This document shows, in pieces, positions 5,943 through 64,000 of a stretch of 64,000 nt of DNA. A model generated the notes under the pieces. It searched no databases and was not told the DNA's origin. It saw only the letters and a list, made by a program, of their open reading frames with translations. Location: NCBI GenBank assembly GCA_963281255.1, contig OY725488.1, positions 1,612,001 to 1,676,000 on the forward strand. The letters run 5' to 3'. Numbering within the stretch: position 1 is the first letter of the stretch; every line of letters starts with the position of its first letter. Made by a program: the position numbers and the translations under genes. Source of the DNA: Aphrocallistes beatrix. Its lineage: Eukaryota > Porifera > Hexactinellida > Sceptrulophora > Aphrocallistidae.

Positions 5943-6114
5943 CATGATCATATTGATCTGATCTATGCTGGTAGCTCAGTACGACAGCCAAGATCAGCTT
6001 TCAGGACTAATCACATAACTACAAATATTGAGTACCCTAAAATACTAGAATTGTAAAACGAATGTCTCAAAGAAAAGTATCCAATACTATTTAGTACAAA
6101 ATCTCACTACCAGA

Positions 6115-7326
6115 ATGAAACCTAAGTATATTTTGTGGATTTATGTGATCGCAACTTTGCAAATTCTATTAGGAATATTTTTCTGCAAAAATTATGCATT
6201 TTCCAAAAGGAATATCGCAAGATCAACTTCACTAGCAAAGATAACAAACAAACAATCAAATGGTTATAATCCAGAAGGCAGAGTGGACAACTGGACGCGA
6301 TACAGGAATGAATGGAGCGGCGAAAGACTAGTCATGCACATAGGAAAGAAAAGACTTCAGTTCACAGATAATTATGTCAAGAGAATGGAGAATAAAGGGA
6401 ACCATCCTCTGCTAAAGATCCATCCATTCCTCGAAACAAGACGGAGAAGAATTCAGAAACTTTGCAAAGAATATCCTCCTGAAAATGATCTGCTTTCATT
6501 TTCCATTCCAGGTCGATACCTCTACAATCAGTTTTATGAAATAGCATCCTGCATGCCTCCTAAAACTAGTTCGACTCAGTGGGTAGAGGTGTTCACGCAG
6601 CTGGCAGAGTTCAAGGTCAACTTCTCGTGGGCGAGAACTGCAGTGCTCGAATATAGGAACTTGTCTTTGGCTTATCATCTCAGTGACGACCAGTTCATCG
6701 CAAAAGCTTTCCAAACCTACCTCAAATTCACGACAGTCCGACACCCGTGGGAGAGACTAGTATCAGCTTATTACGACAAACTAATCGACAGCAATTCCGT
6801 GTACACACAGAATTACGGCCCCGACATAATCCAATACAATTATCTAGAAGGCTACCCTACAGATGAATGGCAGCTGAGGATGAGATTGAAACAAGATAGC
6901 GCAAGCGAAAGTGAGATTGAATGGAAGGTAGGACAGTTGAATAGAATGAATGACAAAAATTTCAATTTCAATCTAACATTCATCGAATTCCTAACCTACA
7001 TTTCTAAGTTCAAAGATAGAAGTGAACTTGAACAACACTGGAGACCAATGGCACTCCTGTGTAACCCTTGTACGCTGCACTATGATCTAATTCTCAAATT
7101 TGAAACGATGCATCGGGATGCAAATGTCCTGTTAGAATACTTAACGAGAGAGAGACAAAACGGACCCAAAGTCAACTACCCTGAAAAACATGTGGCGATA
7201 ACGAAGAAAAAATGCAATCAAGAATTTTCCAGCATTCCTTCAGACATTCTAAAGAAATTATATGAAATCTACAAAGAAGATTTTGCGCTATACAATTACT
7301 CTACCTCGAATAATAATATTTGCTAG
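6115..7326 (+). CDS. Carbohydrate sulfotransferase (HNK1ST/chondroitin 4-O type)
   Basis: An uninterrupted 403-residue frame with the architecture of a Golgi type II sulfotransferase. A short cytoplasmic tail (MKPKY) is followed by a hydrophobic signal anchor at residues 6-25, a stem, and a lumenal domain. The 5'-phosphosulfate loop is PKTSSTQW (about 149-156), and the 3'-phosphate motif is VRHPWERLVSAYYDKL (about 208-223), both used to bind PAPS. Several N-glycosylation sequons are present (NFS, NLS, NLT). Later conserved elements include FIEFLTYI and HWRPMALLCNPC, the latter typical of this family. The family transfers sulfate to GalNAc, glucuronic acid or related sugars of proteoglycans and glycoproteins; the acceptor cannot be deduced here. 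The length agrees with CHST8-14 relatives. No intron is needed. Confidence 0.9.
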   Translation: MKPKYILWIYVIATLQILLGIFFCKNYAFSKRNIARSTSLAKITNKQSNGYNPEGRVDNWTRYRNEWSGERLVMHIGKKRLQFTDNYVKRMENKGNHPLLKIHPFLETRRRRIQKLCKEYPPENDLLSFSIPGRYLYNQFYEIASCMPPKTSSTQWVEVFTQLAEFKVNFSWARTAVLEYRNLSLAYHLSDDQFIAKAFQTYLKFTTVRHPWERLVSAYYDKLIDSNSVYTQNYGPDIIQYNYLEGYPTDEWQLRMRLKQDSASESEIEWKVGQLNRMNDKNFNFNLTFIEFLTYISKFKDRSELEQHWRPMALLCNPCTLHYDLILKFETMHRDANVLLEYLTRERQNGPKVNYPEKHVAITKKKCNQEFSSIPSDILKKLYEIYKEDFALYNYSTSNNNIC

Positions 7327-33352: not shown

Positions 33353-34746
33353 AGGCTTCTATGCCATGTCTGTGTGTATACTATTCTGAACCTACTATAT
33401 ATAAGTACATGTATATAGGGTCTTTTTGTCGGAAGGAATATCTTTTTTCTTGTATTCACTTGTCACTTGAATAATTACACAGCAGTTATATACAATTTTC
33501 GTTATTTTAAAGGGAGATCCAACCTACATATAAATGATCCTAATGACAAATTACTCGTAATACCGCGGATTTATATTTAGCGGTAGTACTGTTTCCAATA
33601 GCGCAATATTGCAATTCATAGACGTTATACGTATGTATAATATGATATGATATCAAAATAAGTCTCACATACTCTCAATATACAAACCAACAAACAAAGT
33701 TATTACCACACTTGCTCTTCCAGCTTTAAGCGAGGGGGGCATAGCAAGTTCCTCAGGGGGAGAACTGCAAAGTAGATTTACTGGATGGACAGGCCATAGT
33801 ATAATAAAAAGGTACACCTTTTTAAAAATATGGCAACAAATTGCTGTCCAAAGTGGTTAATTTTATGTATAAAGTAATCGTGTATTAGATTGAACGAATA
33901 CACTCAAGTTAATATCGAGAAAAATAATTTTGAATTTTATGGACCATGCTGGTTTGGACTGAAAATGTTGGTCAGACCAGCGTTTGGCTGGTCACTTGGA
34001 TGTATGTACACCTCTCGGGCTTATTTATTAATCAATTACAGATTTTTTTCTTTATCATACAAAATTTATTTTATAAACAATATTTGCAAATATTGCCAAC
34101 AGGATAATTTATATAACTATTTTATGAAGCCAGTGATGGATTACTCAGAGTAAACTACCCGGGTGAGTAGCACTGGTTTTCTAAAAAACACTGTTTGAAT
34201 TATCACCATTGTAGATACGCGGCTACAATCATTTAAAATTAATCTTTGTTAGAATCATTATACCCGCTACTCGCTATACCATAAATTGAAGATGTTTTTT
34301 TTGTGCAACGCAGATGGGATACCTTTGTTCACAATGTTTACATATATCAGAAACTAATATATTTGTGAAAAAGAATCTTTACTTCATCATCGAAATATAT
34401 TTCCTTATTAGAAATCAATTTCTGAGTAAGGAGTATTCGAGATTTGATTTGGTTAATTAATAAACATTTCTGTTGCAAATTTAGTTACCATGGAATCAAC
34501 AATCATGCATTGATTTGAAGTAATTTCTATGGAAACCATAGGATTTGCGTGGTTGAAAGAGTAATATGCATAGCTATTCACATTTGCTCATAAATATCTT
34601 GTAAAGCACCCGTAAAGTATAATTGAGAAAAGAGAAAGAAACTGTTCGGAATTTTTGTCATCTCGATCAATCAGACAACCTTAGGGACACCCGACCAATA
34701 ACATCTCAGCCATCCGAGCAAAGAAAAACATCCCAGTCCATTTGAG
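33353..34746. other. Intergenic region before the Y-box gene
   Basis: No gene supported. The last 130 bases hold a likely promoter and 5' UTR of the Y-box gene: a CCAAT-type motif (gaccaataa) lies about 50 bases before the ATG, but no start site can be placed. Confidence 0.4.
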
Positions 34747-36126
34747 ATGGCATCAGATTCAGTGGACACACCGAAACCAGACGAGACTCCTACTCAACCA
34801 GAGGCTACTAACCCACCCTCACTTCGGAGTGATTCCACTTCGGATGTAGAGGCAAAACCTGAAACAAAAGACCAGCCTCCCAGCGAAGAAAATACGGAGG
34901 GTAGCGAAACAAAGAACACACTGTCTACAGATGACATGTCCAAACTGCCAAGAGAGCTTGGGACTGTGAAATGGTTCAATGTGAAAGCCGGTTACGGATT
35001 CATTATGCGCGGCAGCGGGGAAGACATCTTCATCCACCAGACCGCTATCATCAACAACAACCCTTCCAAGTCCGAGCGCAGCGTCCGCGAGGGAGAAGAG
35101 GTAGAGTACATCGTCATCCGCGGTGTGAAGGGACCGGAAGTAGCAGAAGTCACCGGTCCAGGACTGGTCGCGGTTTTAGGCAGCGATTACGCGCGCAATA
35201 AAGGAGATTACAAAGGAAGAGCGATGGGGCGCCAATCCCGTGTGCGCAGCTACCAGAATCGTGGGAGGAACCCCGTGCCCTCCTATCGAGCCCCACCCCG
35301 CAGTGTTCAGCGCCAGATGGCCCCGCGTGAGCCATACCACTACCAGCAGTTCAGCTCGTACCCTCCCCGCAACGGCTTCCGCGACTACCCGGAGCCCGTG
35401 TACCGGGACAGGCCGTACGTGGAGCACTATCAGTACAGAGACAGGGAGCGGGATAATGTGAATTACCGCGAGAGGGACGGGCATTACAGAGACCCGGGAT
35501 ACGACCCGACGGGACCCAGGCCTGCTAGGAACTTCTACTCACGCCGAATTACCAGGCCGATTGAAGGAGACCGAGATAGGGAGAGAGAACCCGGAAGGGA
35601 GAGAGACGCCGAGAGGGACAGAGACCCCGAGAGGGACAGAGACCCTCGTAGACGTAGAATGCCGCGTTTTGATAGCGATAGAGAGTATCGGGAAAGGCCA
35701 TTTGATGGGAACACAAGAAGAGAGGGTATGGAACGGGAAAGAACAAGAGGGGAGGGTGTAGAACGGGAAAGGACAAGAGGGGAGGGTGTTGAACGGGAAA
35801 GGACAAGAGGGGAGGGTGTCGAACGGGAAAGGACAAGAGGGGCTAGGGAGAATCGCACGCGAGGAACACGTAGTGGTAAGCAATACCCACGCAGGAGACC
35901 GAAGAGAGAGAGGGAGGACAGAGAAGAAAAGGAAGCTGGCGAGATTTCGCCCGTTTCTTCAGATCATAATGTGAACAGTCTAAATGATGAAATGGCAGAT
36001 CTGCAAATCAACGGGGAGCCAGACTCGAGTGAGCAGGTTAATGGAGAGAGTGCGCCGATTGTGGACGTCAAAAGGGTCGAGCCCCTTGCATCAGACGCTC
36101 CTGAGAGTGGCTCTGTGGAAGCTTAG
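34747..36126 (+). CDS. Y-box / cold-shock domain RNA-binding protein
   Basis: A 459-residue uninterrupted frame. An acidic, Pro/Ser-rich N-terminus (1-68) precedes one cold-shock domain at about 71-142: GTVKWFNVKAGYGFI contains RNP1, and DIFIHQTAI contains RNP2; VKGPEVAEVTGP closes the fold. The remainder is the basic tail of metazoan Y-box proteins, rich in Arg, Tyr, Asp and Glu (RDRERD, REPGRERDAERDRDPERDRD), including four 10-residue repeats ERERTRGEGV. The C-terminal 60 residues are acidic. Y-box proteins package mRNA in the cytoplasm and control its translation and stability. The family normally has introns in vertebrates; none here. The first ATG is used; its context is acceptable. Confidence 0.92.
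   Translation: MASDSVDTPKPDETPTQPEATNPPSLRSDSTSDVEAKPETKDQPPSEENTEGSETKNTLSTDDMSKLPRELGTVKWFNVKAGYGFIMRGSGEDIFIHQTAIINNNPSKSERSVREGEEVEYIVIRGVKGPEVAEVTGPGLVAVLGSDYARNKGDYKGRAMGRQSRVRSYQNRGRNPVPSYRAPPRSVQRQMAPREPYHYQQFSSYPPRNGFRDYPEPVYRDRPYVEHYQYRDRERDNVNYRERDGHYRDPGYDPTGPRPARNFYSRRITRPIEGDRDREREPGRERDAERDRDPERDRDPRRRRMPRFDSDREYRERPFDGNTRREGMERERTRGEGVERERTRGEGVERERTRGEGVERERTRGARENRTRGTRSGKQYPRRRPKREREDREEKEAGEISPVSSDHNVNSLNDEMADLQINGEPDSSEQVNGESAPIVDVKRVEPLASDAPESGSVEA
35731..35850. repeat. 30 bp coding minisatellite in the Y-box gene
   Basis: Four units of 30 bp beginning gaacgggaaa at 35731, 35761, 35791 and 35821, nearly identical and in frame. They create spurious long antisense frames on the minus strand. 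Confidence 0.9.
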
Positions 36127-38347: not shown

Positions 38348-40243
38348 TCAAGTGAGGGCAGATGACCTGGAGGAGCGATGTGATTGCCTAATACATTTGG
38401 GACACTTGTTAGGATTGTAGCAGCGCGAGTGGTAGCAAGCCTTGCACATCTTGCAGCGGGTCACCGTGTAGAGGTCGAAAGGGAAGATCGGCTCCTGGTG
38501 TTTGCAGTACTCGCAGATGAATCCCTTCCCGCGGCAAGAGAAACAGTGGATGATGTGTGAGCGGAGGTCCAATGATAACTTGTCGAGGAGGGGCATTAAG
38601 GTGGCTTCGCGGACCTGATTCAGATCTGAGAGTGAGTAGAGATGGATGTCTGTAGCCCAGTGTGTGTGTCCATTGAAGAGTGCTACGAACTTGGATGCAA
38701 ACTTACAGGAGCGAATATAGGTGAAAAGGTGACACAGCTGGAACCGCTTGATATACACTTTGTGTAAGGCTTTCACTCGTTTGTAGAGTCCCTGGTTGAT
38801 AACCATCACGCTAAAGAGAGGATCGTTCGAGATTTTGTTGATCAGATTGTATGCAATGCCAGAGACGGAGTATTTCTTGAAGTCCCAGGCATTCAGTATG
38901 TAGGCGGGCACATTGACAGGTCTTGGCGCCATGCACGTCTGGCAGAAGTACTTGTTGTAGTAGTAGCAGAGGTTGAGGTTCTTGTAGAAAGAGCGCTCGA
39001 TGTGCATTCCACATCCCGCGCATAGGAAGCTCTGCTGCACCATGGCCTGCTCCAAGGGAGGAGCAGGGTGCAGACTGAAGAGGATCTGAGGGCGGGGCGG
39101 CGCCCACTGGTAGTTCCCTCTCAGCCGAGTAGAGCCCGGGTTGAGGTGCACAGGGGCGCACGATGAGGGAGCGGGCCTGGTGGAGACAATCTCCGAGAGG
39201 AGACGGGGAGGGAGGGGCAGGAGGTTCTGAGGCGCCTCTGTCCGGTCTACCATCCACTCGAGGGAGGCGAGCACGTGGCTGAGGACGGCGCGCTTGAGCA
39301 CGGCCTGCGCGAGGATGTCAGTCGAGCTGGCGGGGAACTGGAAGGACAGGCTCTCCCAGGTCTGCCGGGGACCGGCGGGAAAGGGAGAGTCACTCGGAGG
39401 AGGCGTGCCGGCCGGGGAGGCGAGAGGGAGGGGAGTCTCGCTGGTTGGTGTGAGGTCCGGAAGAAGGGGGTTGGCGGTGGTGATGGAGAGCAGCGGCATC
39501 CGTTTGTAGAGGGAGAGCCTGCTCTTCATGTCTTGGATCACTTCGTCGTCCTCCAGGGCCAGTTCTTCGCCCTCGTCCTCGCAGTCCTGGTACCGACCCG
39601 AGAACATCTCCTCCACGGACACCAGCACCGCCTCCGAGAGGGAGAAGTGCAGGTTCTCCTCGTCCAGGGAGCTGAACCCGCTGAAGCAGCCGCCCCCTCC
39701 CGCCCCCTCCTCCCCTTGCGGGGCCCCGGACGAGGCGCTGGACTTCAGATTCTTGGCGAAGGAAGGAACCTCGCTGGGAGGAGGAGAGGGGTAGCCCGCA
39801 GGAAGCTCGGGGTCGAGTAGGGTCACTCTGCTGGCGGAGGGGCGTGTCACCTGGTAGGACTCCGAGAGAGAGGGGGAGAGGGCAGCGACCGGGTGGGAGG
39901 CGGGCCTGGGACTCGAGAAGAGATTCGGTCTCAAGAACATCTTGAAATCCGCTGACATGCTGGAAGAGAGCTCGTTGCAGCGCGGGAGCAGAGTGTGCCC
40001 CGTGGAGCGAATGCGGCTGTGAATTCGCTTGACACTGAACTGTTTGTCTTTAGAGCCGTCGGGATTGGTGGCGGCACACTGACTCTCAGGGTTGCTGCTG
40101 TAGCCGGACTCCTTGCCCTCCGACTCGGAGTGAGGTCTGACAGACAGTCGCAGCATGGTAGGGTCCGGGGTGGAGTAGCGGAGTTCTGGTCCCCCTCTTT
40201 CTGGTTTTATGCTTTTATGAAGTTCTCGAGCTACCCCGGACAT
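38348..40243 (-). CDS. Rubicon-family protein (C-terminal RH zinc domain)
   Basis: A 631-residue uninterrupted frame. Residues 1-390 are Ser/Pro-rich and apparently disordered, with an acidic patch (YQDCEDEGEELALEDDEVI). The C-terminal 230 residues form a Rubicon homology domain: FLCAGCGMHIERSF near 403, YFCQTC, NAWDFKKYSVSGIAYNLI, LFSVMVINQGLYKRVK, then the zinc cluster FSCRGKGFICEYC, CKMCKACYHSRCY and CPKC. The family binds RAB7 and the PI3KC3 complex and regulates autophagosome and endosome maturation. No RUN domain is seen, so it resembles Pacer/RUBCNL in layout more than full Rubicon; an upstream exon with RUN cannot be excluded. Located 367 bp downstream of the SF3A3 stop on the same strand. 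Confidence 0.9.
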   Translation of the reverse strand: MSGVARELHKSIKPERGGPELRYSTPDPTMLRLSVRPHSESEGKESGYSSNPESQCAATNPDGSKDKQFSVKRIHSRIRSTGHTLLPRCNELSSSMSADFKMFLRPNLFSSPRPASHPVAALSPSLSESYQVTRPSASRVTLLDPELPAGYPSPPPSEVPSFAKNLKSSASSGAPQGEEGAGGGGCFSGFSSLDEENLHFSLSEAVLVSVEEMFSGRYQDCEDEGEELALEDDEVIQDMKSRLSLYKRMPLLSITTANPLLPDLTPTSETPLPLASPAGTPPPSDSPFPAGPRQTWESLSFQFPASSTDILAQAVLKRAVLSHVLASLEWMVDRTEAPQNLLPLPPRLLSEIVSTRPAPSSCAPVHLNPGSTRLRGNYQWAPPRPQILFSLHPAPPLEQAMVQQSFLCAGCGMHIERSFYKNLNLCYYYNKYFCQTCMAPRPVNVPAYILNAWDFKKYSVSGIAYNLINKISNDPLFSVMVINQGLYKRVKALHKVYIKRFQLCHLFTYIRSCKFASKFVALFNGHTHWATDIHLYSLSDLNQVREATLMPLLDKLSLDLRSHIIHCFSCRGKGFICEYCKHQEPIFPFDLYTVTRCKMCKACYHSRCYNPNKCPKCIRQSHRSSRSSALT

Positions 40244-40609
40244 GAGGTTGCTAAATATAACGAGATAAACAAGGATGATAAAGGAATAAATCTATCTTCA
40301 CTTCTGAAAAGTCCCCCATAATACTGGCCTGCTTATTCCTTCCTTGAGGAATAGGAACTTACGGGTCCTGAGAGGGGGCCTGCCCCCTCCTAGTTTCGCC
40401 CCTGATTCACTTTAAAATATGCATTCCAACGGTAAATTTCCAGTAGACAGATTCTACAGAAACAAAGCATTTGTTTACGTAAATATGTGTCTGATACTGC
40501 TTCTGCTTCCTTTGCAATGTGACATGCCATAAGAGAGCAAATTCATTGGTAAACTAGCTAATCAGAGAATCAACACTAATTCAATCTCAAATCATAATGA
40601 GTGCAGATG

Positions 40610-42109
40610 TCAGAGCAGACCTTGACGTCGGAGATCGTCATATGTCTTGCGCGTGATAACATTCCCGAGAGAGTCCTCGTACTCCACATCACGATTCGAG
40701 TCGAACCTACTGTCCTCCCCCACCGACTTGACCTTGTCCCAGAGCGCCAGTGCGTCTTCGATGTGAGTGACGTTGGCGAAATGGGCTGTGTTCGGAATTC
40801 CAAGTTTCCGCATGCCGTAAGCGTGTCGGTATTCAGAGAAATGTCTCTGGAACGCTTTAGGCCCCTTGTAGACGGCCTGTCCGCAGATCTCGCAGGTGTA
40901 GTTGATGTTGAGTCCGTGCAGCTTGTAGAGCCAGTATGGAATCGGCTTCCCGTCCCAACCCAGCTGGATGTTCTTCGGGTTGTAGATGATGTCCTCCTCC
41001 TCGGACGCGCTGCTCTCGGCGCCGCTCGAGTCGTCATCCTGCTCCCCCACTGTCCGCGAGAGCTTCCTCTCCGCATTCTCCTTGCTGGCTTCTCGCTGCT
41101 CCCTCAGCTGCTCTCCCTGCCAGTACACGGCAGCCTCCAAGGAAGCTACTTCTTTCTGGAGAGAAGAGTACTCCTTCGCCCCGCGAGCTCGGGACAGCAC
41201 TCGCTCATCCCATTCTTCTCGCGGCAATGCTCGAATGGTGAAAAGTCTCTCAGCTCTCTCCTCCAGCGTCCCTCCGCACTTCAGCCCCCTGGCTTGCAGG
41301 AGCGTTTTCAGAGTCCCCATTCCGAGTCGGGAGAGCTCTTGTGCAGAGGAGTATTGGGAGAGATCTAAGTTGGAGGTGAAGGGTCTTATCATGGCACTGC
41401 CTGGGAGGGTTTCTTTCTCCCAGCCCATGAACTGTCCTACCTTCCATTTATCTTCAAAATTCTCTAACACCGTCGCAATTTCCTTCTGAATGTCGAGCAA
41501 AGGATGAACTCTCCCGAGCAGATCACTGAGGTAGTCAGAGAGGTCCGTGAGGTATTGCAGGTAGAAAGATGTCTTCAACTCCCGCTTTATATCAGCCAGG
41601 CGGTCAAAGGTAGAGAGGTAGTTGATGTAATCCACTCGAGGCATTGACTTGAGGCTGCAGAATTCTCTGTGACACCTGTGCAGGTCTAGACAGCGGCCAT
41701 AGCACTCTTCGTCTGAGAAGGTCACCAGTGGGACCACCAGCTCAGGGTCCAGTCTCTCCTCTGCCAGGCGGGAGAACTCCATAGACATCGGTTCCTCGAT
41801 GTTTTCGGGGAAAGTTTTGTGAAAATCTTTAATCTGTTTGAGTCTTCTGTAAAATTCAGGAAATTCTTCATGTCCCGAAAACCTACTGATCTCCTCCCTC
41901 TTCATCCCGTCCTTGTCCTCGTAGAGGGCGTACAGCGTCTGAGACATGTTGCAGAAGCGCTCGGACAGCATCTTGCTGCGGTGTTCAGAGTTTATTTGCT
42001 CTCGGAGCATCGGACACCCGCCTCGGTACTCCTTCTCATCGGTCAGTGCTTGTTCTATGCGTTCGAGTTCCTCGTGCGTTCGTCTCTGTCTCTCGACTAC
42101 GGTCTCCAT
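40610..42109 (-). CDS. SF3A3: Splicing factor 3A subunit 3 (SF3a60)
   Basis: Starting at [10 protein letters not shown] (42109) the frame gives 499 residues, very close to the length of animal SF3A3; an earlier in-frame Met at 42148 is less likely because the family begins with MET. Visible blocks: EINSEHR-like region [43 protein letters not shown], a SAP-like segment [19 protein letters not shown], the strongly conserved [20 protein letters not shown], and the C2H2-type zinc finger [22 protein letters not shown] near 403-427, followed by [18 protein letters not shown] and the terminal [10 protein letters not shown]. The protein is part of U2 snRNP and is needed for branch-site recognition in the nucleus. 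It is a single exon here. Confidence 0.98.
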
Positions 42110-43094
42110 CCCACTGCTGCAATTGAGTAGGATCAGCAATGAATTCAAAATAATTTCTGCTCTGGAAGACGTACACTAATCGACGGGAATATATTTCAAG
42201 AAATTAGAACACAGAAATTCTAGTAGATAAGTCTATGTAAGAAGATAAATGCATATTTGCATAAACTAGGGATTATTATTATCCTGTGAGTTCACACAAT
42301 CCGTGATATAACGTAATGAAATTTGGGCCTCATTGGGGAAGTGCACATACATCCAGACTTCTCTACATACTGAAATGCAGATACGAATACAGATCTAGAA
42401 TAATACAAATAAGCGCGATCGATCCGCCGATATGCAAAACTGCCAGGATAATATTTGAATGTAAACTATTCTATTAGATACCACCTACTAGTAACTAAAT
42501 TTTCAAACATTGTGTTGTTTCCCTCAACCTGTAATGTAACTAAATCGTGTGATGGCAAGTGACAAATCGTGAGATATGGAAAAATAGTATTACATAGTGG
42601 TTATAAATCGTGAGATTTGAGAGGCCTGTAGTTTGCAAGTTAAAAAAATGTGGGTAGACAGATCGATAGTGCAGCCCCATTAAAAAGCCAACGGGGGTGT
42701 TAAAATTATGCATACATACAGCCACATATATACGTAAATATATTCACATTATGGCCATCTAAGTGCAAAAATCAGATTCTACATAGTGAAAGACCCTAAA
42801 TCAAAAAATTCAATTTAAGCAGGAGAGTCAAAAGCTGTTCCGTGACAAAGCGACACAAACCATACAGCACGGCACGGGTCTAAAAGAAACTCGAAACCCA
42901 TAAAAAAGTGAAGACAAGCATGATAAGTGGGATAATTTATTATGATTATTCTAGACAGCTAACACAACATATAATAGTTAAGCAGGGAGATATAATGTAA
43001 TGGAAATAAGTGAGATGTACAGTGGCATTAATTAGGTTTTAAGAGATAGAGACAATCAAGCTGTATTTAAGGATCGTTATCTTTCAGTGCCGAT
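42110..43094. other. Gap between SF3A3 and RA-PH adaptor genes
   Basis: No gene supported; a 61-codon frame at 42540-42725 (-) has no domain. Contains the SF3A3 promoter on the right-hand side of its start, not resolved. Confidence 0.4.
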
Positions 43095-45275
43095 TCAAAC
43101 TAGAGTGAACTTAGAAGCTAGGAGGTTTCCCTGAGTGTAGGAGAAGGGCTGGAATTTGTCAATGGGAGACTGTTCTACATGGTTACCATCAGCAGCCTGT
43201 GGAATGAATACGGAGTCCCCGGCTGCCCAAGCATTACTAAAGCTCGCAGCGATCTTAGAGCTCTTCTTGATTGATTCTCTGGAATCAAGATCTGAAGTCG
43301 AACTAAACTTAATTTTCTTCTCTTCGAGCACGTCAAGAGAATCGATGAGAGGATTCGCCAAACTGTTCATTTGCAGCTCATTGTGCAGCATCTGCTTCTC
43401 CTCAGTGGTGAGGGCTGACTCCTGAGATCTGGGCGTGACCTCAGACATGGGGTTAGACAAATCCCCTTCATTCTCCAGCCAAGGATACAACTCAAAGTTC
43501 TCTTGGTAATTAAGGACTAGCTGAGTGGAGTATTTGGCTAGAGAGATACAAGCCATCCAAACTTCCAACATTCTCTTGCTAGGGAAACACATGTGTACGA
43601 TCAATTTCTCAACTTGGTCCAGGCGCCCGGCAGGGACCAGCGAGCAGCAGAACTTATCCGGAGACTTGTACATCTCCACGTAGCGCTGGCCTCGGTACAG
43701 CTCCACCTTCTTCCAGGTGACTAGGTTCACCAAGTCCTTGGTAGAGCTCCTCCTCGACTTGGAATAGTATAAACCGGAAGTTCGCAGGACGCAGAATATT
43801 TTCCTCCAGGCCCCCTTCTTCCCGATCTTGATATTGAGGACGTTGGAGATGGGCGGAAGTGTTTTATCATAGAACAGTTCCTTGATCAGGATACGCCTGC
43901 GGGTAGCATCGTCGAAATTTGAATCGTTATTAGTCGCGAGTGGGTGGATGGCGGGCATGAACAGTTGAGGCTTTTTCAACAACAAATACTTCTCCGAGAT
44001 ATTTTTAAATATAATGACATTCGTATGCTGCCTCGGCCAATGAGCAATCACGTCCAGGAGAGGTTCGTGGTCCTCAATGGTTCTCTCCAGTCCAAGCGCA
44101 GTCAGGAACTCCACCAAGCACCAGTTGGGCCCGGGAGTCTGGTGGTTCTTTTCTGCCATGGTGTTGCAGACACTTCTCGCAGACATATTCTCAACGATCT
44201 TCACCATCTTGTAGGACATGTTGATGTCGTAGATCTTGAGCACTAAGCGCCTCTGGTTAGCTAGACGTAGCTTGGAGAGGGCCAACGATATCTTAGCTTC
44301 CTTCGAGTCATTCGGACTTAAATGAGTTTCAAAAACGTCATCTTGACTGCTGATAGAATGCTGGGGGACATGGATAGGGTCTGGTTTGTGGTTAGTTTGA
44401 AATGAGTTCTTAACTTCAAAAGTGTCGACTGACTGGGGCGTAGAATTACTCTCAGGCGATGCAAGATCGGAATGCGAACTCTTCTCAGGAGATTCTATCC
44501 CCAGCGCCATTTCATCCAGGTCTGCGATCAGAGCATCCAGGTCGTCTAGCGCAGAGAAGGAGTCACATCTGACAGATGCGGTAAATGAATCGGTGGACTC
44601 TACTTCCGGGAAAGAAGGAGCTCTGAGATGAGATAGCTCCTGTAAGCTGAAGTTGCTGCCGATGGAGTCGGTTTCTGAGATCTTTTGAGAGGAAAGGAAG
44701 CCCTTCATGTCAGACAGCTCATTCAAACAGGAAGCTAATAAGTCATTGGGAGGAGAGCAGATATTGAATTCGTCAAGCATCCGCATTTCCGAACCGGTCA
44801 GGCCCGGGATTGAATTTTTGAACAGCTGATTCTCATTTGAATCGGGTATAAGCGGACGCAAGCGATCAAGATCTGGAAGAGTTACCTTCTTAGGTGGGGC
44901 ATTCTTTTCAAATGAATATGTGACATGCTCATCCCCGAACAGTATTTCAACCTCGTTGCTGCAAGAGAGATTGGGAGAGATCTGAGGGCTATTCTTCTCC
45001 TTTTTATGCCGACCGATTTTAATCATTGTCCCGCTGTTAGTAGGCGATACAGGATTGCTCTTGCTATTCGACTTCAGAGATTGTCTCTTGTGGTGGAGGG
45101 CAATTTCGAGTTCTGTCATTGGGGAGGGGGGTTTGGGAGGCCGCTCAATTCTTTTGCTTAGACCTGGGGGCAGTAGGGAGGTTAGAGATATTATTTCGGG
45201 AATCAGGCACGGTGGAGTGCCGTGTGTTAGTTTGGTCTTTGAGTTCCTAGAAGGAATGGGTGGAGGGGGGTCCAT
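43095..45275 (-). CDS. RA-PH adaptor of the MRL family (RIAM/lamellipodin-like)
   Basis: A 726-residue uninterrupted frame. The N-terminus is proline-rich (MDPPPPIPSR, RPPKPPSPM) and followed by about 300 residues with short acidic motifs (ALDDLDALIADLDEMALG). A Ras-association domain spans about 337-425 (RRLVLKIYDINMSYKMVKIV, CLVEFLTALGLERTIEDHE), followed directly by a PH domain at about 478-590 (KIGKKGAWRKIFCVLRTSGL, LYRGQRYVEMYKSPDKFCCS). This RA-PH tandem defines the MRL and Grb7/10/14 proteins; absence of an SH2 domain favours MRL. RIAM links Rap1 to talin and integrins, lamellipodin links Ras signals to Ena/VASP. The C-terminal 130 residues are Ser-rich without a strong profilin-type proline tract. 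Confidence 0.88.
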   Translation of the reverse strand: MDPPPPIPSRNSKTKLTHGTPPCLIPEIISLTSLLPPGLSKRIERPPKPPSPMTELEIALHHKRQSLKSNSKSNPVSPTNSGTMIKIGRHKKEKNSPQISPNLSCSNEVEILFGDEHVTYSFEKNAPPKKVTLPDLDRLRPLIPDSNENQLFKNSIPGLTGSEMRMLDEFNICSPPNDLLASCLNELSDMKGFLSSQKISETDSIGSNFSLQELSHLRAPSFPEVESTDSFTASVRCDSFSALDDLDALIADLDEMALGIESPEKSSHSDLASPESNSTPQSVDTFEVKNSFQTNHKPDPIHVPQHSISSQDDVFETHLSPNDSKEAKISLALSKLRLANQRRLVLKIYDINMSYKMVKIVENMSARSVCNTMAEKNHQTPGPNWCLVEFLTALGLERTIEDHEPLLDVIAHWPRQHTNVIIFKNISEKYLLLKKPQLFMPAIHPLATNNDSNFDDATRRRILIKELFYDKTLPPISNVLNIKIGKKGAWRKIFCVLRTSGLYYSKSRRSSTKDLVNLVTWKKVELYRGQRYVEMYKSPDKFCCSLVPAGRLDQVEKLIVHMCFPSKRMLEVWMACISLAKYSTQLVLNYQENFELYPWLENEGDLSNPMSEVTPRSQESALTTEEKQMLHNELQMNSLANPLIDSLDVLEEKKIKFSSTSDLDSRESIKKSSKIAASFSNAWAAGDSVFIPQAADGNHVEQSPIDKFQPFSYTQGNLLASKFTLV

Positions 45276-46430
45276 TCGCTAATTTAGTGAATATAACCAT
45301 AGTAATATAGACATTGGACACTATTTTAGTCCTGAAAACACCTTCCTGATTACACCGCCTCTATTCATGAAGATTAATTGGTTTGAACCAGTGTTTTCAA
45401 GAACTGTATAAAACTGGATTACTTCGCACAATGATACAATATCATTTAGATTTATTTACACATATAATCATGAATAGCGAATATACAATGAAATAGTACG
45501 CGCTTATTGTAGAAATTAAATTCATTCAATCTCACTCATCGTCCTCTATAAAGCACTGTACAGATCTAATCGCTTAGCCCCCCGCTCATGTTAAAACTTT
45601 TGAAAGCCACTTTGTTAAATAATGAGTTCATCGCTCTGTTAACGCTGCCGTTTACTATTCTATTATTTGTGTAGCACAATAAATTTTCTTTTTTCGTCAT
45701 AAATTGATTAGAAAAGAGATGGTAAAGAGCAGGTGCGACGAACTTTTCGAAATCTAAGGACAATTTCGGGGTTCCAGGGGGGGCTCAGCCCTAAATTAGT
45801 ATTGCGTCTATGGGCCATCTTCGAATCCAGGGGGGGCTCGAGCCCCCCCAGCCCCCCCGGGTTCGGCGCCTATGGTAAAGAGTTTACTATAAACTTGGAA
45901 CTTAATCTTTATCAGATTTATATTTAGGATGAATCAAATGATTTAATAGACTCGAGTCAGCATTACATAATATCTCTATACCTACCTACAGTCAAACAGG
46001 AATTCTGCGCTTCTACGCAATATGGTCTTTCAAATGGTAGTTGACGTAATAACTCGAAGTTATTGTCAACCATTATCTTTTATCTGTAGGTCAAGACAAG
46101 TTCGAAACTAGGAAAAGAACTCCATGTAACTAATACCATTTAGTATGAGAATAGTCTACGGCTTCAAAGGTATTCGGATGTCACAGAATAATTCAACTAA
46201 GAGAAGTTAAAAAGTGCAAAAGAATTAAAAATTCTCCTTATCCAATTAATTACAGCATGTTGTCCGTATAGATCCTGTGGGAGGGAAATATTTGAATCGA
46301 TCTATTTTTGAGGAAATATAAGTACTGTATATACTCAAACATCGACCGTTGATCAAATTCATACCATTTACAGTTGTTATATTTGTAGGTAAAGATGCGT
46401 CGATTTTCCAGATAAAGTATATAGGAAATA

Positions 46431-49311: not shown

Positions 49312-52300
49312 TCATTTATTAAGATAGTAATTTTGTGCTCGGATAATATCTTCTTTTTCACAGAGGACGTGGAAGTAAAGAGAGGAGGGAGACAAGAAGC
49401 GATCCTCTATGATGCGAGCTGTAAGAAGCGAAGTGAGCATTATGTCGCTGGGCTCCCTCAAAATGTGCTCTTCCAAGCTGAGGAGGCTTAGTATAGTTTT
49501 AGCAGCTGTGAGGGGTGCCAGTCTGCTCTGAGGAGAACTTGAAATAAGACTTAAAAGGATGTACTTCAAGAAATTACGCAGCGGCAGAGAGGCAGATGAA
49601 TGGAATGTGAATGCATCTTCACAGTTGTATTTCTGTAGAAATGCAATATAAAATATGGCCAATAGTAGTGCCCCTTTTATTTAGATACAATCATGCCACA
49701 TCATACTGAATTTAATATGTATAGTATAACAAAAGAAGTTCTATGAATCAAAAGATACACGTAATCAAAATGATCGGAATCGAGACTGCGCTACTTTTTC
49801 ACGCTGTCCCAAATGGAACTGAATTATATTTTTAACTTCATCATGCTATGTGAGGATAAATTTGAGCCCTCACCTCCTGAAAATCTCAACCATAGATTCT
49901 CTTTCTTCCTCCCCTTTCTTTTAGAATCAAGTATTGAATATTGAGTAAGTGATGGAGTGGAGCTTAGGTCCGTGGGATAATTTACTATAAATTTCAGAGA
50001 TAGTTTCTAGAAGTCATTATCTCTTAAACCTTGACCAGGACAGTAATCACGACCGACACCAAAATTTATCGTAAAACAATGCATCTTCCAACCTGGATAT
50101 TAAATTATATTGGAACATAGATCCACACATATCAGTTTAATTAGAATAATTATGAATTGATTCAATTGAGTCAAGAAAAATCTTCTCAAACTTAAATTGG
50201 GATAATCTTTGCCTCGTTTTAAAACTTTTTTCAAACTAATATAGTCTTGCCTGACTCTGCAGTGTAGATTGTATGATGACACAGTGATTGTATTCTCGAT
50301 ATTAATAAGTAGACAATACTAAACGATTGCGATCGTTATGAATGGCGGACACTCCGTCGCACGGACATTTCGTCGCGGACATTTCGTCCTCTGAACATTA
50401 GTTACCGGACACGGGTAGCGGATCTTTCGGAATTTTCGTCCCCTGAAATACCCCTTTCGCACCTACTTATTTCTCAATCAAAGCCCTCATTTTCACCTTT
50501 TTTTTCAAACATACTTCACTCCAAAAGCCCCAAATTCCGTTCCTTATAAATTAGTACCCGTTTATTTTAGTCTCTAATGAGGCGAAATTCCCGTGAAACA
50601 GAGACGAAAATTCCGCTACACATTGTCCTGTAACTGGTGTTCAGAGGACGAAATGTCCGTTTACCGATCGTTATACCACATATTCGGAAACTACGTCTTG
50701 TGATAAGAAGAATCCTTGCTTGTAGAATAAGATGGACAATGTAAATCTTATCCGAGTTTAAACCTTTGAATCTATCCACACGTCATGAGTAGCAGATTAA
50801 CAGGTGAAGTACTATTACTATTTTTTGACATAGCCTGTCACTCACCTGCATAGGCCACAGATCCGCTTCTTTCATGAAAATATTCTGATAAAAAGAACGA
50901 CCAATTGAATATATATCTACGTGCTGGTATGGGAGGGCGACTTCCACCTCTGAGAGCTGATCAACCGGAAGTGAAGAGAAGTGGGAGAGTTCGGGTGCGA
51001 AGGATTCATTGCAGTAGTATGGGATCGTGTTGTTGAGGCTCTTCATGGTATAAGGCTGCGATTGAGAATTACTTAGGTAGATACAACAGGTGAAGTTGGA
51101 GAGAAGAGCCTTCTTGTGTTTCCTAGTAGGGATACATCACAATAGTTTATATGTAGATATACAATCAATCTTATAAGGCTAATAGCAGGGTACATACACG
51201 TCTACAATGATATTCTGAGGGTTTAGGTTCCTGTGTACAATACCGTACTGTCTGAGATGCTCTAGAGCCAGCAGACAGTTAGAAAGTATAGAGAGAACAG
51301 TCAACTCTTTGGTAGGATCAAACCCTTCCCCGAAATCCTCTGATTTGATATGTAGAAATTGATCGAGGGATATTTCTAAAATCGGTGTCATCAAGAAGAA
51401 GGCAGAAGAGCTGAGCTGCTGACGAATAATTTCTTGCACGTTTAAGTGCGTAGAGTATTCCTCGGCAGAGGCGCAGTAGATGTGGGACGGCTAGTGAAGG
51501 GATCCATGGTTAAAGAAGGAACATAATCCTTAAGCCACGCGAACAGAGAATCTACCTGTAGGATGAATGGGTGATACATGATCTGGTAGGCGGGATCATA
51601 CTTCCCGAGATATTTGAGCAGTTTCTCGTTGTTAACTCTCCCCGTAGTCGAGTTGTAGAAGAGTCCGTGCTCCGAGGTGAGAAGAGCGATCTGAAATTAA
51701 AAAGTGGAAAAAATAAATCCATAATTTTAAACCAGTGGAATAACTTAGTTAAAATTACTGTATGCATTACAAAGGATGGCAGCTACTAATCGTAAACTGT
51801 ATCTAGAAGATCCAGAATCGTAATAAGGATTTGGATGATAACTTTCTTAAACAGAAACCATGCTTATTGTGATAGAAATATTTAACAATTATTAAGGTTT
51901 TCTGGATTTAGGGTTGGCGTCGGTTGATTAGAACTTCGAAGGCTATTATCTTCTATTAGCCATAATACGATCTGCCCAAAATGGGCTACCAATCTTGAGT
52001 CCTAGCACAAAGGCCCTACGAATCCTCATCACGAGTCAATGCCCCTGAAGAAGTACTGCACCTTTAGATTGAATGCTCCCATCTTTTCGCCTTTTGCGTC
52101 CATAGAAATAAGTTCAACCTTGTTGGAGTTAGGGTCCTTTATCAATAGACATTCCTTAGTTATGTCTATTATAAAGTCTATGCCTAGTCGCATCCCATTG
52201 CCAACATTGAAGTTGGTGTAGAGGTCATATATGTCGACAATTCTGGATTCAGAGTAGATCTTGCTAATCAGGTCAGAAATCTCGAGACAAGCATTTTCTA

Positions 52301-55300
52301 TAAACAAATTTGAATATGCATCATACATTTAATAAGTATAAATCATCCTAATCTCACAGATTTCGAATCTATTCTTATTCATAAAGTATTTCAGTAAAAT
52401 CATATTACAGTCAATAACATTTAAATCTCGACATTATTTTTTTTGCCAGGAAGCCTCATTTTTTAAAGAGGGCTATCAGATTGTACATATTTTATACAAT
52501 CTATCTTTACAATAGAGTATAACAAATTTCTCATTGAATCATGACTTCATTGTCACTGTGATTTTTGTTAATATTGTACCTGTCACACTATAGATAACCT
52601 TAAGGCGAAATAGTTAAAATTGTCGCTTATTTCGGATATTGGAGTGCAAGATCAACAAATAGTATTAATAACGTGTCGAGCGAAATTTTCACAATGAAAC
52701 GTACGCTTTAAGGTATGTAGGATTGAAAAAAAATGTTTGGCGATGTTGTTTTGACTCGCTTGTCTTTGCACCAGCTCCTTCACCATGCACAGCCTGAAGC
52801 AGAGAAGAGCTTGCTGGGAAGGCTGGAAGCAATCAAGCATGTGCTTGATGATGTCCTCCGACAGGGTGCTCTTCTCCAGCATACGGTTCACCTCAAAAGC
52901 AGAATCAGTTGATTGTCTGGAGAGGCCAGCTTCATACCTCACTAGAGGAAGGGTTGTGTAGGAAGGTAGCTCTGAAAACTTACGAGAGCAGTTAATGCGC
53001 AAGCTAAGGAGTGTGTCAAATGAAAAGAATAGATAAAATGTCAACAAATGTAATATAAAATTATTAAGAGATTTTAGTCAAGATTGTTTATATTCACCTA
53101 GAAAAATCATGGTAGCCTTGCTCGGAAGCGGATCTGTTAGGAGTTATCATTAAGTCAGGAGGACAAGGAGAGAGCAATTCAGGCAGACTCCCAATCATTG
53201 GTTCTAAACAAAGAATGAAATGAATATAAGAAGGGGATATCCTTGGTGAAATATAGTCACAACTATTTAAAGTCGAGTTCTTTTAGAAAGAGATTTTCTA
53301 GTTAGATTTAATAGTATGTCATAATGCAGAACCTCTAAGGAGATGGCCCTATGGGAAGCACTCCGTCCATCCATATGATTCTGCGAAATATTACAGGTGT
53401 ATGTATTTCTTTTATGGTGTAGATGACATCAACAATATATTCCCGTAAATTAACACTATATTCCCGTAGTTGCCCTAAGTACAGTATATCCTCATATTTT
53501 CACACAATTTAGTGTGCTTCCCATGCTATAATTTTGGAGTTTGGATCATAGATCCAATATAACACTAGCATAGTTGAACAGTTATAAAGTGAGTGCTGGT
53601 GTCCGACAACCGTAATTCCTCCCTTAGCAAGAGTTCAAAGATAATGGATCGAATTTTTTACCCAACCTTTCGATTTTAAAAATCTCGAAAATCTAGAGGC
53701 TGAGTCAGTCTATTACCGGTGTCCAGATTATATATAAGTATGATATATTTAATATACTAGTATATTGGTGCAATTTACGAAGACAGATAGGTACACAGAT
53801 TAACATAAAAAGAAAAGAATAACCGAAGTAGAAAAACTACTGACATTTTAATTATGATGTGTCATTGGGTCCGAAAATATTATTTTCTCTATGGCAAGGG
53901 CTCCCAACCTTAGTTACCCCCTTGAGATCGTAAACCTATTCCCGTACCCTGTGAAGTAATTTAGTTCGTGGAAATCATACGCCGCAAGTAGCCTTCGACA
54001 GACAATCAATTTGTTTTAATTAATGTAAAATTGTGTTGAAAAGTCAACACTCACGTTATCATTTGTTAATTAAACACTTCGCGTACCTCTAAAAAGACTC
54101 AAGCACACATAGGCGTCGATGATGGGGATCTGGGGCGCTTGTAACTGTAATAGTAATTAGGTATAGTTGAACCCAACCCTGACAGGCAGCGACACATAAG
54201 TCATCAAAATATTAGACACTGATATTGAGGTTTTTAAATCCATGACTTACAAATTACTTTTAGAATATAAAGATCCCAATTTCAAGTCGAGTATGTTTAT
54301 TATTTGTTAATAAATCATTAGCTTTGGATATTCACAGCGATCTTTTGAAAATATGAAAACATATTTTATCCAAAAATATAGGAAACGAAAACCCATCATC
54401 TGGTTAAAGAGGCATATAGGCATTTCAACAAAAATGTCCATTATTATAAGCTATTTTATAATAAGACTGCTACAGAGTTACGATCGTAACAAATATCTCT
54501 GACCACCAGGCCAAATTATGGAAAAATTATGAGAATATATGCTTAATTTATACCTAAAATATTTCTTAAAAATAGCCGACAATGTTCAGTTTTAAGGCCC
54601 AATGAGCACGAGCATTATACTTCAGAAGACCAGTTTTAAATAAGAAAATTTGGGGGAGGGGGACAAGCCCCCCCGAACTTTCCGCCCATGCAACGCAGTA
54701 ATTCCATATTCATACCAAACGTAGATAGTAACCTCATCTAAAACCCATTCCACTCTCAATCCAATCAGACTTTCCAATGCTAACTTATTCGCGGTTAATA
54801 TGTTAATGTGCCATCGTCTCCTGATTCAATATTTTGTATTTAAAGGTATTAAACACACATCCTGATGGCTTTTTAGTTTTAAAAGTAACTAGGAATTAAC
54901 CGATTACTTTTTTTCCTCATTACCTGAATCACAAGGAGAGAGATGAACATAGTTGTTTAAGAACTTGGGGGCTGTGTCGTGAGGAGGAAAATCACTCTCT
55001 AGCAATACATCCTTGTGGCGAGGTTGAGCACTAAAGATAAGTGTAATATATAACAGTATCGAAGTGTTAGGATATTCTTTACAACAAATTGACTTATTTT
55101 CGATGTGTAGTAAGTACTTACATTGAGCTGGGACTAAACAGGGGGAGAGAGATAATAGGAGCATTTTGGCTGTTCGTCTCCAGAGGAATGCTGAGTGATC
55201 TGCAGTTTGGATCTAAATCTAAATGGTTGGAGATAAAACTATATCATAATTTCAAGAGCATAGATAGGTACATCTATTTCACCTTTTGCCTGATCAAAAT

Positions 55301-56162
55301 CTTTCAACAGCTGCATAATGTTGAAGTGTGAATTACTGGCTGCCTCCATTGCTGGGGTCTTGCCCATATTGTTCTTCACGTCGATAGCAGCTCCAGCCTC
55401 CAACAGTATATTCACACACTCCTCGTTCCCTCGACAGCAAGCTAGATGCAGGGCTGTGTCTCCGTTCGAGTCCTGGCTGTTGATTCCAGTGGTGTGTTGC
55501 AGAAGGAGACTGAGGATGGTCTCATGGCCCCGGGAGGATGCCCCATGCAATGGGTAGAAGTCCTGCCCTGTCTTCTGGTTAGCATCTGCATTAGACTAGG
55601 AGGGAGTGGGTCAGTTAGTAGCGGCACAACAATAAATAATACATTTGGTGCAAAGCTGAATTTAGACATACGTAGTACAGTCTAGAGTGGAAAGTAACTA
55701 TAATACTTTATGAATAGAGGCAGTGGCATTAGCTATTGGAACAAGACTGTATATTTTGATCAGAAAATATGTAGAATTTGATCAGAAATGTGGAATTTGT
55801 ATTAATTAGTTTTGAAATTCCACATTTCTGATCAAAATTTTACATATTTTCTGATCAAAATATAGTCTTGTTCTCATCATAACTGGACACACTTATTGCA
55901 ATACAGTTTCCAGGGAAAAAGTAGGGACAGAGGTTCAACAAAGGAAATTGCTACTTACGGATATCAGAAACTGGCACAGTTCAATATTCCCTGAGCATGC
56001 GGCCGAATAGAGCGGAGTCTGTCCTTCGTTGTCAACACAGTTTACAATGCTCGAGTTGGAATTTAGATAAGAACGAACTAAGTCCAGGTTCCCCTCAGAG
56101 CAGTAGTGAAGTAGCTCATTGACAACTCGAGGTTTTTCTGAATCTGCATTAGGATCATCCAT
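49312..56162 (-). CDS. Ankyrin-repeat protein fused to a PINK1-like pseudokinase domain
   Basis: Eleven exons on the minus strand whose phases all agree: 56162-55959, 55595-55283, 55212-55122, 55030-54924, 53203-53098, 53003-52705, 52297-52062, 51690-51556, 51490-51198, 51122-50846, 49632-49312; about 793 residues. Residues 10-170 are about four ankyrin repeats (GQTPLYSAACSGNIELCQFL, GDTALHLACCRGNEECVNIL). Residues 175-370 are a Ser/Pro-rich linker and a helical segment. From about 375 a kinase-like fold follows: NACLEISDLISKI, FNVGNGMRLG in place of the glycine loop, GAFNLK (Lys452), IVHRNLNPQNIIVD (HRD changed to HRN, 583-585), ALLSNFTCCIYL (DFG changed to NFT, 604-606), ESFAPEL (APE). The Cys-Cys after the DFG position and the C-terminal AAKTILSLLSLEEHIL resemble PINK1. 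The split between exons 6 and 7 is the weakest join; alternatively two genes. Confidence 0.7.
50370..50669. mobile_element. MITE with long inverted ends, in the pseudokinase intron 10
   Basis: The left side has ggacatttcgtcctctgaac, and near 50638-50668 its complement gttcagaggacgaaatgtcc. About 300 bp, non-coding. Ends not exactly fixed. Confidence 0.6.
53204..54923. other. Intron 4 of the ankyrin-pseudokinase gene
   Basis: 1.7 kb, AT-rich, no coding exon recognised. Transposon-like C-tract near 54650-54680. Confidence 0.45.
55739..55872. repeat. Palindromic MITE-like repeat in intron 1
   Basis: Arms of about 58 bases (gaacaagact, atattttgatcagaaaatat, gatcagaaatgtggaattt) face each other around a short AT centre. 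Almost completely self-complementary. Confidence 0.75.
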
Positions 56163-62558: not shown

Positions 62559-63319
62559 TACAAGTATTCTGATTACAAATGTAGAAAATCTTACTGTAAA
62601 GGTTAAGCCGGATCGGTCATAAATATTGGTACGGCCATTGCCGGACCAATATATTCGGCCGATTAGGCCAAATATTTTAGTTTAGCCATGACCGGACCAA
62701 GTTGACTAGTCAAACATTGGTCCGGCCAAAGCAGGACCAATTTTTAAATATTCTTTCGCTTTTAAATATCTGATAGCTTGGTTTTGTTCAATCAAACATA
62801 CGTAGTATCTAATTGACAAAGTACCAATTGGAATTGAAATTTTAAGTCTAAATTTATGTTTATCTAACAGGTTTCGTTGCTACAATACTAATTTCAATTC
62901 AGTTCATATTTTCAATATTGTCTAGCTAGGCACTAGTTCTAATATTAGATTCATAGTCTTAGATACCATATTCGCGCATTGGTATTTCTTTATCTGTATA
63001 CTAATTTTAATCCATAGATACCATATTCAAACAATGGCATTTCTTGAAATTTCGGCTTCGCAATAGCTCTCGTAACATTCTATAAGTAGCTCTAGTATCT
63101 AAGAAGCGAGAATCAGTATAAAATATGCAATTATCAATCATTCAATTATATTTTTCTTCAGTTTGAGTGATCTTAACCAAATTATACTAAATTTCAATCT
63201 ACCCTTAGCACCTGTGTTGAGGTATATTATCTTAGTTATCTTTTCACAGGCCTAATGACTTGTCCTAATTCAACTTTATTACTAATATAATATTCTCATG
63301 TTTTATCTTCGCTAGCGTT
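62559..63319. other. Region upstream of the RFX gene
   Basis: Includes a GGTCCGGCC-type repeat at about 62605-62745 and AT-rich sequence. Probably holds the 5' UTR or an intron end (cttcgctag at 63308-63316 could be an acceptor). No exon supported. Confidence 0.4.
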
Positions 63320-64000
63320 ATGGATCTCTCTCAGCACTTCATGCTCTACGACAACATTCCCGCAAGTCTGCAGGCAACCGACGAGAACTCTGAAAATGAA
63401 GTTCCCAGCAAGCCCTCAATTCTGCAGATTTCAATGGAAAATCAACTAACTTCGAATCCTCCTTACCTGAGCAAGCATTTACTCTCTCCTAACTCGAAAC
63501 AAATCGCCAAGAAGCAACGTCGGTCCAATAACCAAGCAGTGTTCGCCTGGCTGGACGACAACTATGAGTTGAAGGAGGATGAGTGCTTGGCTCGTAGTGT
63601 AATGTATAACCATTACCTTGACTACTGCAAACGCAATGCGATATTTCCTGTCAGTCCGGCTTCTTTCGGGAAGATTATCAAACAGAAGTTTCCAGAACTG
63701 AAGACACGGCGGCTTGGTACGAGAGGACAGTCTAAATACCATTACTATGGCGTCTCTATAAAGTCTGGGTCTCTCTACTACAGATCCTCTGAGCACAAGA
63801 ACGGCCTGTCTCGCTTCTCCACTTCAATAGGCAATGGCATCGGCACTCCACTTACTCCCAAGAGTAAAAAGGACAATTCTTCTGTTTGCTTTCCTAACGT
63901 CAAACTGAGAACGCCTCTCCCAGACTTCCCAGACACTTCTTACCTCGACCTTTCCCCGCCCTCTTACAAGACCAAGCTGGAAACCTTCATGATCATGTAC
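63320..64000 (+). CDS. RFX4/6-type winged-helix transcription factor, 5' part (cut by window edge)
   Basis: An open frame of 227 codons from the ATG at 63320 runs off the right edge. Residues 1-68 are a variable N-terminus. The RFX DNA-binding domain covers about 70-155: FAWLDDNYELKEDECLARSV, YNHYLDYCKRNAIFPVSPAS, FGKIIKQKFPELKTRRLGTR and GQSKYHYYGVSIKSGSLYY. Residues RRLGTRGQSKYHYYG make the X-box contacts. The following HKNGLSRFS and, near the edge, LPDFPD and KLETFMIMY are characteristic of the RFX4/6 branch, whose proteins have dimerisation domains further C-terminal. RFX4/6 factors regulate ciliary, neural and endoderm genes in animals. A possible splice acceptor just before the ATG means an additional upstream exon cannot be excluded. 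Confidence 0.93.
   Translation, partial: MDLSQHFMLYDNIPASLQATDENSENEVPSKPSILQISMENQLTSNPPYLSKHLLSPNSKQIAKKQRRSNNQAVFAWLDDNYELKEDECLARSVMYNHYLDYCKRNAIFPVSPASFGKIIKQKFPELKTRRLGTRGQSKYHYYGVSIKSGSLYYRSSEHKNGLSRFSTSIGNGIGTPLTPKSKKDNSSVCFPNVKLRTPLPDFPDTSYLDLSPPSYKTKLETFMIMY

Follow-up and report, generated by a model that had tools for sequence, protein, structure and literature searches.

Ankyrin repeats are followed by a pseudokinase, within one protein, in ILK (integrin-linked kinase), and ankyrin repeats also occur with a kinase or pseudokinase domain in TEX14, ANKK1/RIPK4, and TNNI3K. PINK1 has mitochondrial targeting and membrane segments at its N-terminus, and we know of no PEAK protein (PEAK1, PRAG1, or PEAK3) with ankyrin repeats. 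Here we describe a gene from the glass sponge Aphrocallistes beatrix that lies within a stretch of 64,000 nucleotides (the window; contig OY725488.1, positions 1,612,001 to 1,676,000) and that encodes ankyrin repeats joined to a kinase-like domain. A preliminary description of the window considered this combination to be unlike any described protein. But the pairing of ankyrin repeats with a pseudokinase is already known from ILK; a PINK1-like version would be the new part. In a literature search, judged by titles and the beginnings of abstracts, we found no PINK1-like ankyrin-pseudokinase in print. Our best reading is that the gene encodes an ankyrin–pseudokinase scaffold which is, across two protein searches, so far known only from glass sponges, and whose kinase part is possibly of PINK1/PEAK descent.

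As rebuilt from the sequence, the gene has 11 exons on the minus strand (56162..49312; Table 1). All of the junctions are GT-AG, and the cumulative exon phases (0,1,2,1,2,1,0,0,2,0) keep one frame throughout, just as the preliminary description had it. The coding sequence of 2388 nt gives 795 residues plus a stop codon (about 793 had been reported). The G+C content is 45% in the coding sequence and 34% in the introns, and the longest plus-strand open frame within the span of the gene has 90 residues. In the 795-residue protein, five ankyrin families from Pfam are above their cut-offs (the best is Ank_2, 2e-28), with matches that span residues 18–166. Pfam's Pkinase matches residues 528–675 at 32.5 bits, which is borderline, as the cut-off is 31.7 bits.

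Another glass sponge, Oopsacas minuta, has a nearly full-length ortholog (P0001, 771 amino acids): 441 of 796 alignment columns are identical (55%, 832 bits). The alignment covers both halves of the protein and the join between exons 6 and 7, and a conserved block, VKELVQRQASQNNIAK.FF..LHTLK, crosses that join in both species. Identity is 76% in the ankyrin region, 34% in the linker, 60% in a block that precedes the kinase-like fold, 57% in the kinase-like region, and 56% in the tail, so both halves have been retained while the linker drifts. Because a second glass sponge has a full-length ortholog, we conclude that the gene is real, and that, as first described, an ankyrin N-terminus and a kinase-like C-terminus belong to one protein. 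We also considered that neighboring ankyrin and kinase-like genes had been wrongly fused at exons 6–7: the intron there is 407 bases long, one open frame starts with an ATG at 52328, and another ends at 52652. However, Oopsacas has the same joined protein, in a gene set that was built (according to part of the genome paper) with Braker, Augustus, and mapped RNA reads (PMC10280926), and the sequence flanking the join is highly conserved. We give such an artefact next to no probability, and reject the two-gene reading on account of the joined ortholog.

P0001 is annotated as 'Ankyrin repeat containing protein', a name that reflects the ankyrin part only; its match to Pfam's Pkinase (16.2 bits) is under the cut-off. 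The kinase and ankyrin passages of the Oopsacas genome paper are silent on this gene, and the word mitophagy is absent from the paper (PMC10280926). When we searched a protein database with the kinase half of the window protein, P0001 was the sole match among 7997 candidates scored, and a profile of the two sequences again found it as the sole match, among 7998; these were the best candidates, and distant kin may be missed. Genes that are split by introns may perhaps go unpredicted in ENA records, which may be why there is one match here and seven for a single-frame pseudokinase, L009 (discussed below). When P0001 was compared to the A. beatrix genome (100.5 Mb in 28 contigs), 58 of the 299 scored candidates yielded a total of 66 matches. 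Eight of these matches lie in the window gene; the other 58 are all within residues 9–248 (the ankyrin half and the linker), and among these candidates the kinase half had no second copy.

The window protein shares ILK's architecture, and we asked if the gene might be the ILK ortholog. We rejected this candidate: the ILK ortholog is elsewhere in the genome (C6:3860370-3861710, 42% identity over residues 2–450), and P0001 has no meaningful similarity to the kinase part of ILK.

In both sponges, both catalytic aspartates are replaced (HRD → HRN, and DFG → NFT in A. beatrix or NFS in Oopsacas), which bears out what was first noticed in the window. Both species retain the later asparagine of the catalytic loop, APE, the aspartate of helix alpha-F, and the arginine of helix alpha-I. 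(In the window protein, HRN starts at residue 585, NFT-Cys-Cys at 606, APE at 639, and EHIL at 744.) A pseudokinase under constraint would look like this, with the same pair of aspartates missing from both species while the remainder of the fold is conserved. From these motifs, we take the kinase-like domain to be, very probably, a pseudokinase of long standing, and we infer with good confidence that this half of the protein is a dead kinase. The glycine loop had been described as degenerate, which is correct in part, but GxG is retained and NVGNGMR is identical in both species. A lysine after this presumed loop is also kept in both (FN(L/I)K). The glycine loop and the beta-3 lysine may survive in vestigial form as NVGNGMR and FN(L/I)K, an assignment of N-lobe residues (Lys and Glu) that rests on alignment by eye. 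Retention of GxG and of this lysine could be taken to mean that the protein is an active kinase with unusual chemistry. Given that both aspartates are replaced in both species, and that the Lys/Glu assignment was made by eye, we consider activity to be very improbable.

The preliminary description proposed that the kinase part is a paralogue of PINK1. In searches of the PDB, PINK1 was first with the window protein (8.7e-5, closely followed by CK2 at 1.3e-4; best 60 of 423 matched sequences), and with the Oopsacas protein alone, the first five rows were all PINK1 (9.8e-4 to 2.2e-3), ahead of STK38 at 2.5e-3 (best 60 of 227). Thus PINK1 (from Tribolium, Pediculus, and human; 5oat, 7mp8, 6eqi, and 9kmr) was at the top in two of three PDB searches. 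A three-sequence PINK1 profile scored 80.2, versus at most 62.5 for 11 control loci (these are single sequences, two of them are the same gene, and one is in the wrong frame). As a single sequence compared with hhalign, Tribolium PINK1 ranked 1, 3, and 1 among 30 targets when the query was the pair, the window protein, or the Oopsacas protein, and human PINK1 ranked 3, 4, and 4. In the C-lobe beyond APE, the match to PINK1 was equaled by 1 of 150 column shuffles. The activation segment is long, as in PINK1 (35 residues, versus 33 in PINK1 and a median of 27 in 22 local kinases, range 24–43); other similarities to PINK1 are the 70–85 residues beyond the C-lobe and an HPxI ahead of the hinge region. 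In a tree, grouping the pair with PINK1 and L009 cost 0.35 units of log-likelihood, while grouping it with three ordinary kinases (L001, L004, and L005, a group picked after the results were seen) cost 11.9 (p = 0.042).

The replaced aspartates and the ankyrin N-terminus are unlike PINK1, and several results weigh against PINK1/PEAK descent. In the PDB search with the two-sequence profile, CBK1 was first (7.5e-5), STK38 was third (2.8e-4), and PINK1 was only fourth (3.8e-4; best 60 of 112), so PINK1 leads with each species alone but not with the two together. With the window protein alone, the local kinases L039 and L005 had higher hhalign scores (66.1 and 61.8) than Tribolium or human PINK1 (59.5 and 59.3). 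When local frames were searched with the pair's profile, the top match was L005 (17.6 bits), and neither L009 nor L033 was among the matches listed. With a PINK1 profile, the exon-9 frame of the window gene scored 18.9 bits, which is below most local kinases. Broad matches extend beyond PINK1, such as Eph receptors versus the Oopsacas protein (over 153–310) and L007 (over 183 columns). L033, which is clearly PINK1-like (see below), was last of 30 targets in all three hhalign runs, and the PINK1 match in the C-lobe, which did well against shuffles, has an hhalign probability of only 1.8%. Similarity of the tail to human PINK1 was not significant, with 230 of 1000 shuffles as good for the window protein and 221 of 1000 for Oopsacas; with profiles, 62 of 150 column shuffles were as good. 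The tree, built from 31 catalytic regions after 4 of 26 control kinases had been lost to a motif pattern that missed them, leaves the pair unplaced, with a stem 2.82 changes per column in length, and the tree test does not reject kinship with PINK1 (p = 0.154), with L009 (p = 0.226), or with a pair of ordinary kinases (L039; p = 0.383). Structure prediction with AlphaFold2 gave no usable model of the kinase half, either from P0001 alone (mean predicted local distance difference test score, or pLDDT, of 34.6) or from an alignment of 16 rows, comprising exon translations and the L009 family (mean 41.3, with only part of the ankyrin region at 70–80). Finally, Cys-Cys and EHIL, which had been put forward as marks of PINK1, are present in the window protein but are Thr-Cys and EYLL in Oopsacas; we rejected EHIL as a mark since it is short and not conserved.

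Much of this would be expected if the kinase-like half were a diverged dead kinase from another family (NDR-like, CK2-like, or akin to another local kinase) with an unrelated tail: CBK1 and STK38 lead the joint search, CK2 is close behind PINK1, PINK1 scores below L039 and L005 when the window protein is the sole query, L005 tops the local profile search, and the tail tests against PINK1 are not significant. But with the window protein alone, the matches to L039 and L005 span just 97 and 45 columns, as compared to 148 and 168 for PINK1, and grouping the pair with L001, L004, and L005 is disfavored, albeit for a group that was named post hoc. We view another family as the less probable origin, but a serious one. 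Because the broad alignments are not specific to PINK1 and the local profile search was unfavorable, we lowered our estimate for PINK1/PEAK descent and raised that for other kinases. Descent from the PINK1/PEAK branch is nevertheless the origin that we tentatively propose for the kinase part, from sequence comparisons.

The kinase part might instead lie on the PEAK side, as a dimerizing scaffold in which ankyrin repeats replace the disordered N-terminus. Like the window protein, PEAK1, PRAG1, and PEAK3 have a pseudokinase flanked by conserved sequence, and their role as scaffolds is the one that we propose here; a pseudokinase flanked by helices is the PEAK plan in the relevant part of one report (PMC10279700). 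Also, the window protein and the PINK1/PEAK-like L009 can be aligned in their tails, with only 1 and 2 of 1000 shuffles as good. The Oopsacas tail lacks such a match (873 and 977 of 1000 shuffles were as good), which also counts against PINK1/PEAK descent more broadly. With profiles, 29 of 150 shuffles were as good for the tail and 18 of 150 for the C-lobe; no PEAK chain is among the best 60 rows of any of the three PDB searches; and the L009 profile ranks 20–25 of 30 targets. A position on the PEAK side seems improbable.

The simplest mechanism is a scaffold in which the ankyrin repeats are the partner-binding arm. The kinase-like domain would not transfer phosphate; one partner would be bound by the ankyrin repeats, and the kinase-like domain would bind a second or serve as a docking platform. 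PINK1 and the PEAK proteins resemble each other in their N-helix and C-terminal region (PMC8767193, PMC8828467), and, in the parts of these reports that cover the structures, the helix before the kinase fold and the helices after it pack together; the packed helices form a dimer in PEAKs, while PINK1 with its N-helix is monomeric in solution (PMC8767193, PMC8828467, PMC10279700). The conserved blocks on either side of the fold suggest, without showing, a helical module of this kind. The block before the fold and the tail of about 70 residues may pack similarly and form a surface for self-association. Our proposal as a whole, a glass-sponge ankyrin–pseudokinase scaffold whose kinase part is of PINK1/PEAK descent, is as tentative as the descent itself. 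If the lineage is right, then this protein is a natural test of what becomes of the fold after catalysis is lost.

We also looked for a canonical PINK1 elsewhere in the genome, as the preliminary description had suggested. Three protein searches (with pieces of Tribolium PINK1 of 110 and 335 residues and with human PINK1; six-frame, exon by exon) found no catalytic PINK1 among the best-scored candidates in one assembly, with a subset of the lower matches inspected, and such absence does not prove that the gene was lost. For comparison, a search with human ILK recovered the ILK ortholog at 348 bits, albeit in an intronless match. A pattern coding for DFGCC occurs at three places in the genome, none of which has a kinase context by eye. 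The best match in each of the PINK1 searches was the same locus (L009, also L018 and L047; 45.7, 74, and 50.9 bits), which keeps VHRDL but has ISGF for DFG. The third match for human PINK1 (L033, also L030; 39.4 bits) has HRD replaced by LRS and DFG by IGF.

L009 (also L032) is at C3:1879621-1880193 on the minus strand, in an open frame of 1144 amino acids that encodes a PINK1/PEAK-like pseudokinase with a long N-terminus. It matches seven database proteins at 70–100% identity, including one named Oopsacas minuta, and another protein (P0002) is 100% identical over the 424-residue query region. In the PDB, its first 15 rows are PINK1 or PEAK (81 to 48 bits) and the next is at 32 bits (best 60 of 903), and its tail beats at least 998 of 1000 shuffles when compared to human PINK1. 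L033 (C11, 3696-5846, minus strand) is a frame of 716 residues whose kinase part is nearest to PINK1: rows 1–12 in the PDB are PINK1 (best 6.6e-11), and the next family is at 3.8e-6 (best 60 of 294). Outside the kinase families, L033 has one weak, sub-threshold match in Pfam.

The genome also encodes Parkin domains at C8:4145-4148 kb (L027, C8:4142000-4151000): a ubiquitin-like frame, zf-RING_12, zf-RING_14, and IBR. Relative to the human sequence, the position of Ser65 seems to be kept. There is a kinase frame just ahead of this Parkin-like locus. Part of a 2013 survey counts both PARK2 and PINK1 as genes specific to metazoans (PMC3789837). With Parkin domains present and no catalytic PINK1 found, evolution may have split the pairing of PINK1 with Parkin. 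In a more speculative version, which we think is a long shot, glass sponges lost catalytic PINK1 and kept Parkin, and the PINK1/PEAK branch now comprises several pseudokinases on new scaffolds; if so, these scaffolds would be ankyrin repeats in the window gene, a long, PEAK-like N-terminus in L009, and a coiled-coil protein in L033. If true, control of Parkin in glass sponges would run without the PINK1 kinase, perhaps via dead relatives that act as docking or activating platforms.

Table 1. Exons of the ankyrin–pseudokinase gene and other features of the window
Feature	Position in window	Strand	Content or basis
Exon 1	55959..56162	-	Start codon, first ankyrin repeats, residues 1-68; Ank_4 at 18-67 (Pfam)
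Exon 2	55283..55595	-	Ankyrin repeats, starting at residue 69; residues 69-173 of P0001 are matched at 80% identity
Exon 3	55122..55218	-	Low-conservation linker; linker 168-315 is 34% identical with Oopsacas
Exon 4	54924..55030	-	Linker
Exon 5	53098..53203	-	Linker; short block IGSLPELLSP is the same in Oopsacas
Exon 6	52705..53003	-	Linker end and conserved block preceding the kinase-like fold; residues 316-420 are 60% identical
Exon 7	52062..52297	-	NVGNGMR (possible remnant glycine loop) through FNLK
Exon 8	51556..51690	-	Remainder of presumed N-lobe (VNNEKLL, HPFIL)
Exon 9	51198..51490	-	Hinge region, catalytic loop HRN (Asp → Asn), later Asn retained
Exon 10	50846..51122	-	NFT replacing DFG, APE, HVDIYSIG (alpha-F)
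Exon 11	49312..49632	-	C-lobe end, C-terminal tail of ~70 residues, stop codon
Inverted repeat, intron 10	50376-50659		
Inverted repeat, intron 1	55750-55882		
Kinase gene cut at window start	1-623	-	GSGGFAEVYEVE, YRDLKLEN
Sulfotransferase	6049-7323	+	Pfam
GHMP kinase	16841-18088	-	Pfam
SAP-SPRY protein	28572-30665	-	Pfam
Cold-shock	34702-36123	+	Pfam
Rubicon-like protein	38351-40291	-	RH_dom, 1.1e-54
SF3A3	40613-42175	-	Pfam
RA-PH protein	43098-45278	-	Pfam
RFX	63269-64000	+	Pfam

Among the neighboring genes, the one for a Rubicon-like protein, from a family of autophagy regulators, lies about 9 kb from the ankyrin–pseudokinase gene. Introns 10 and 1 of the latter contain inverted repeats with arms of 36 nt (92%), 30 nt (97%), and 22 nt (100%), which are possibly small mobile elements.

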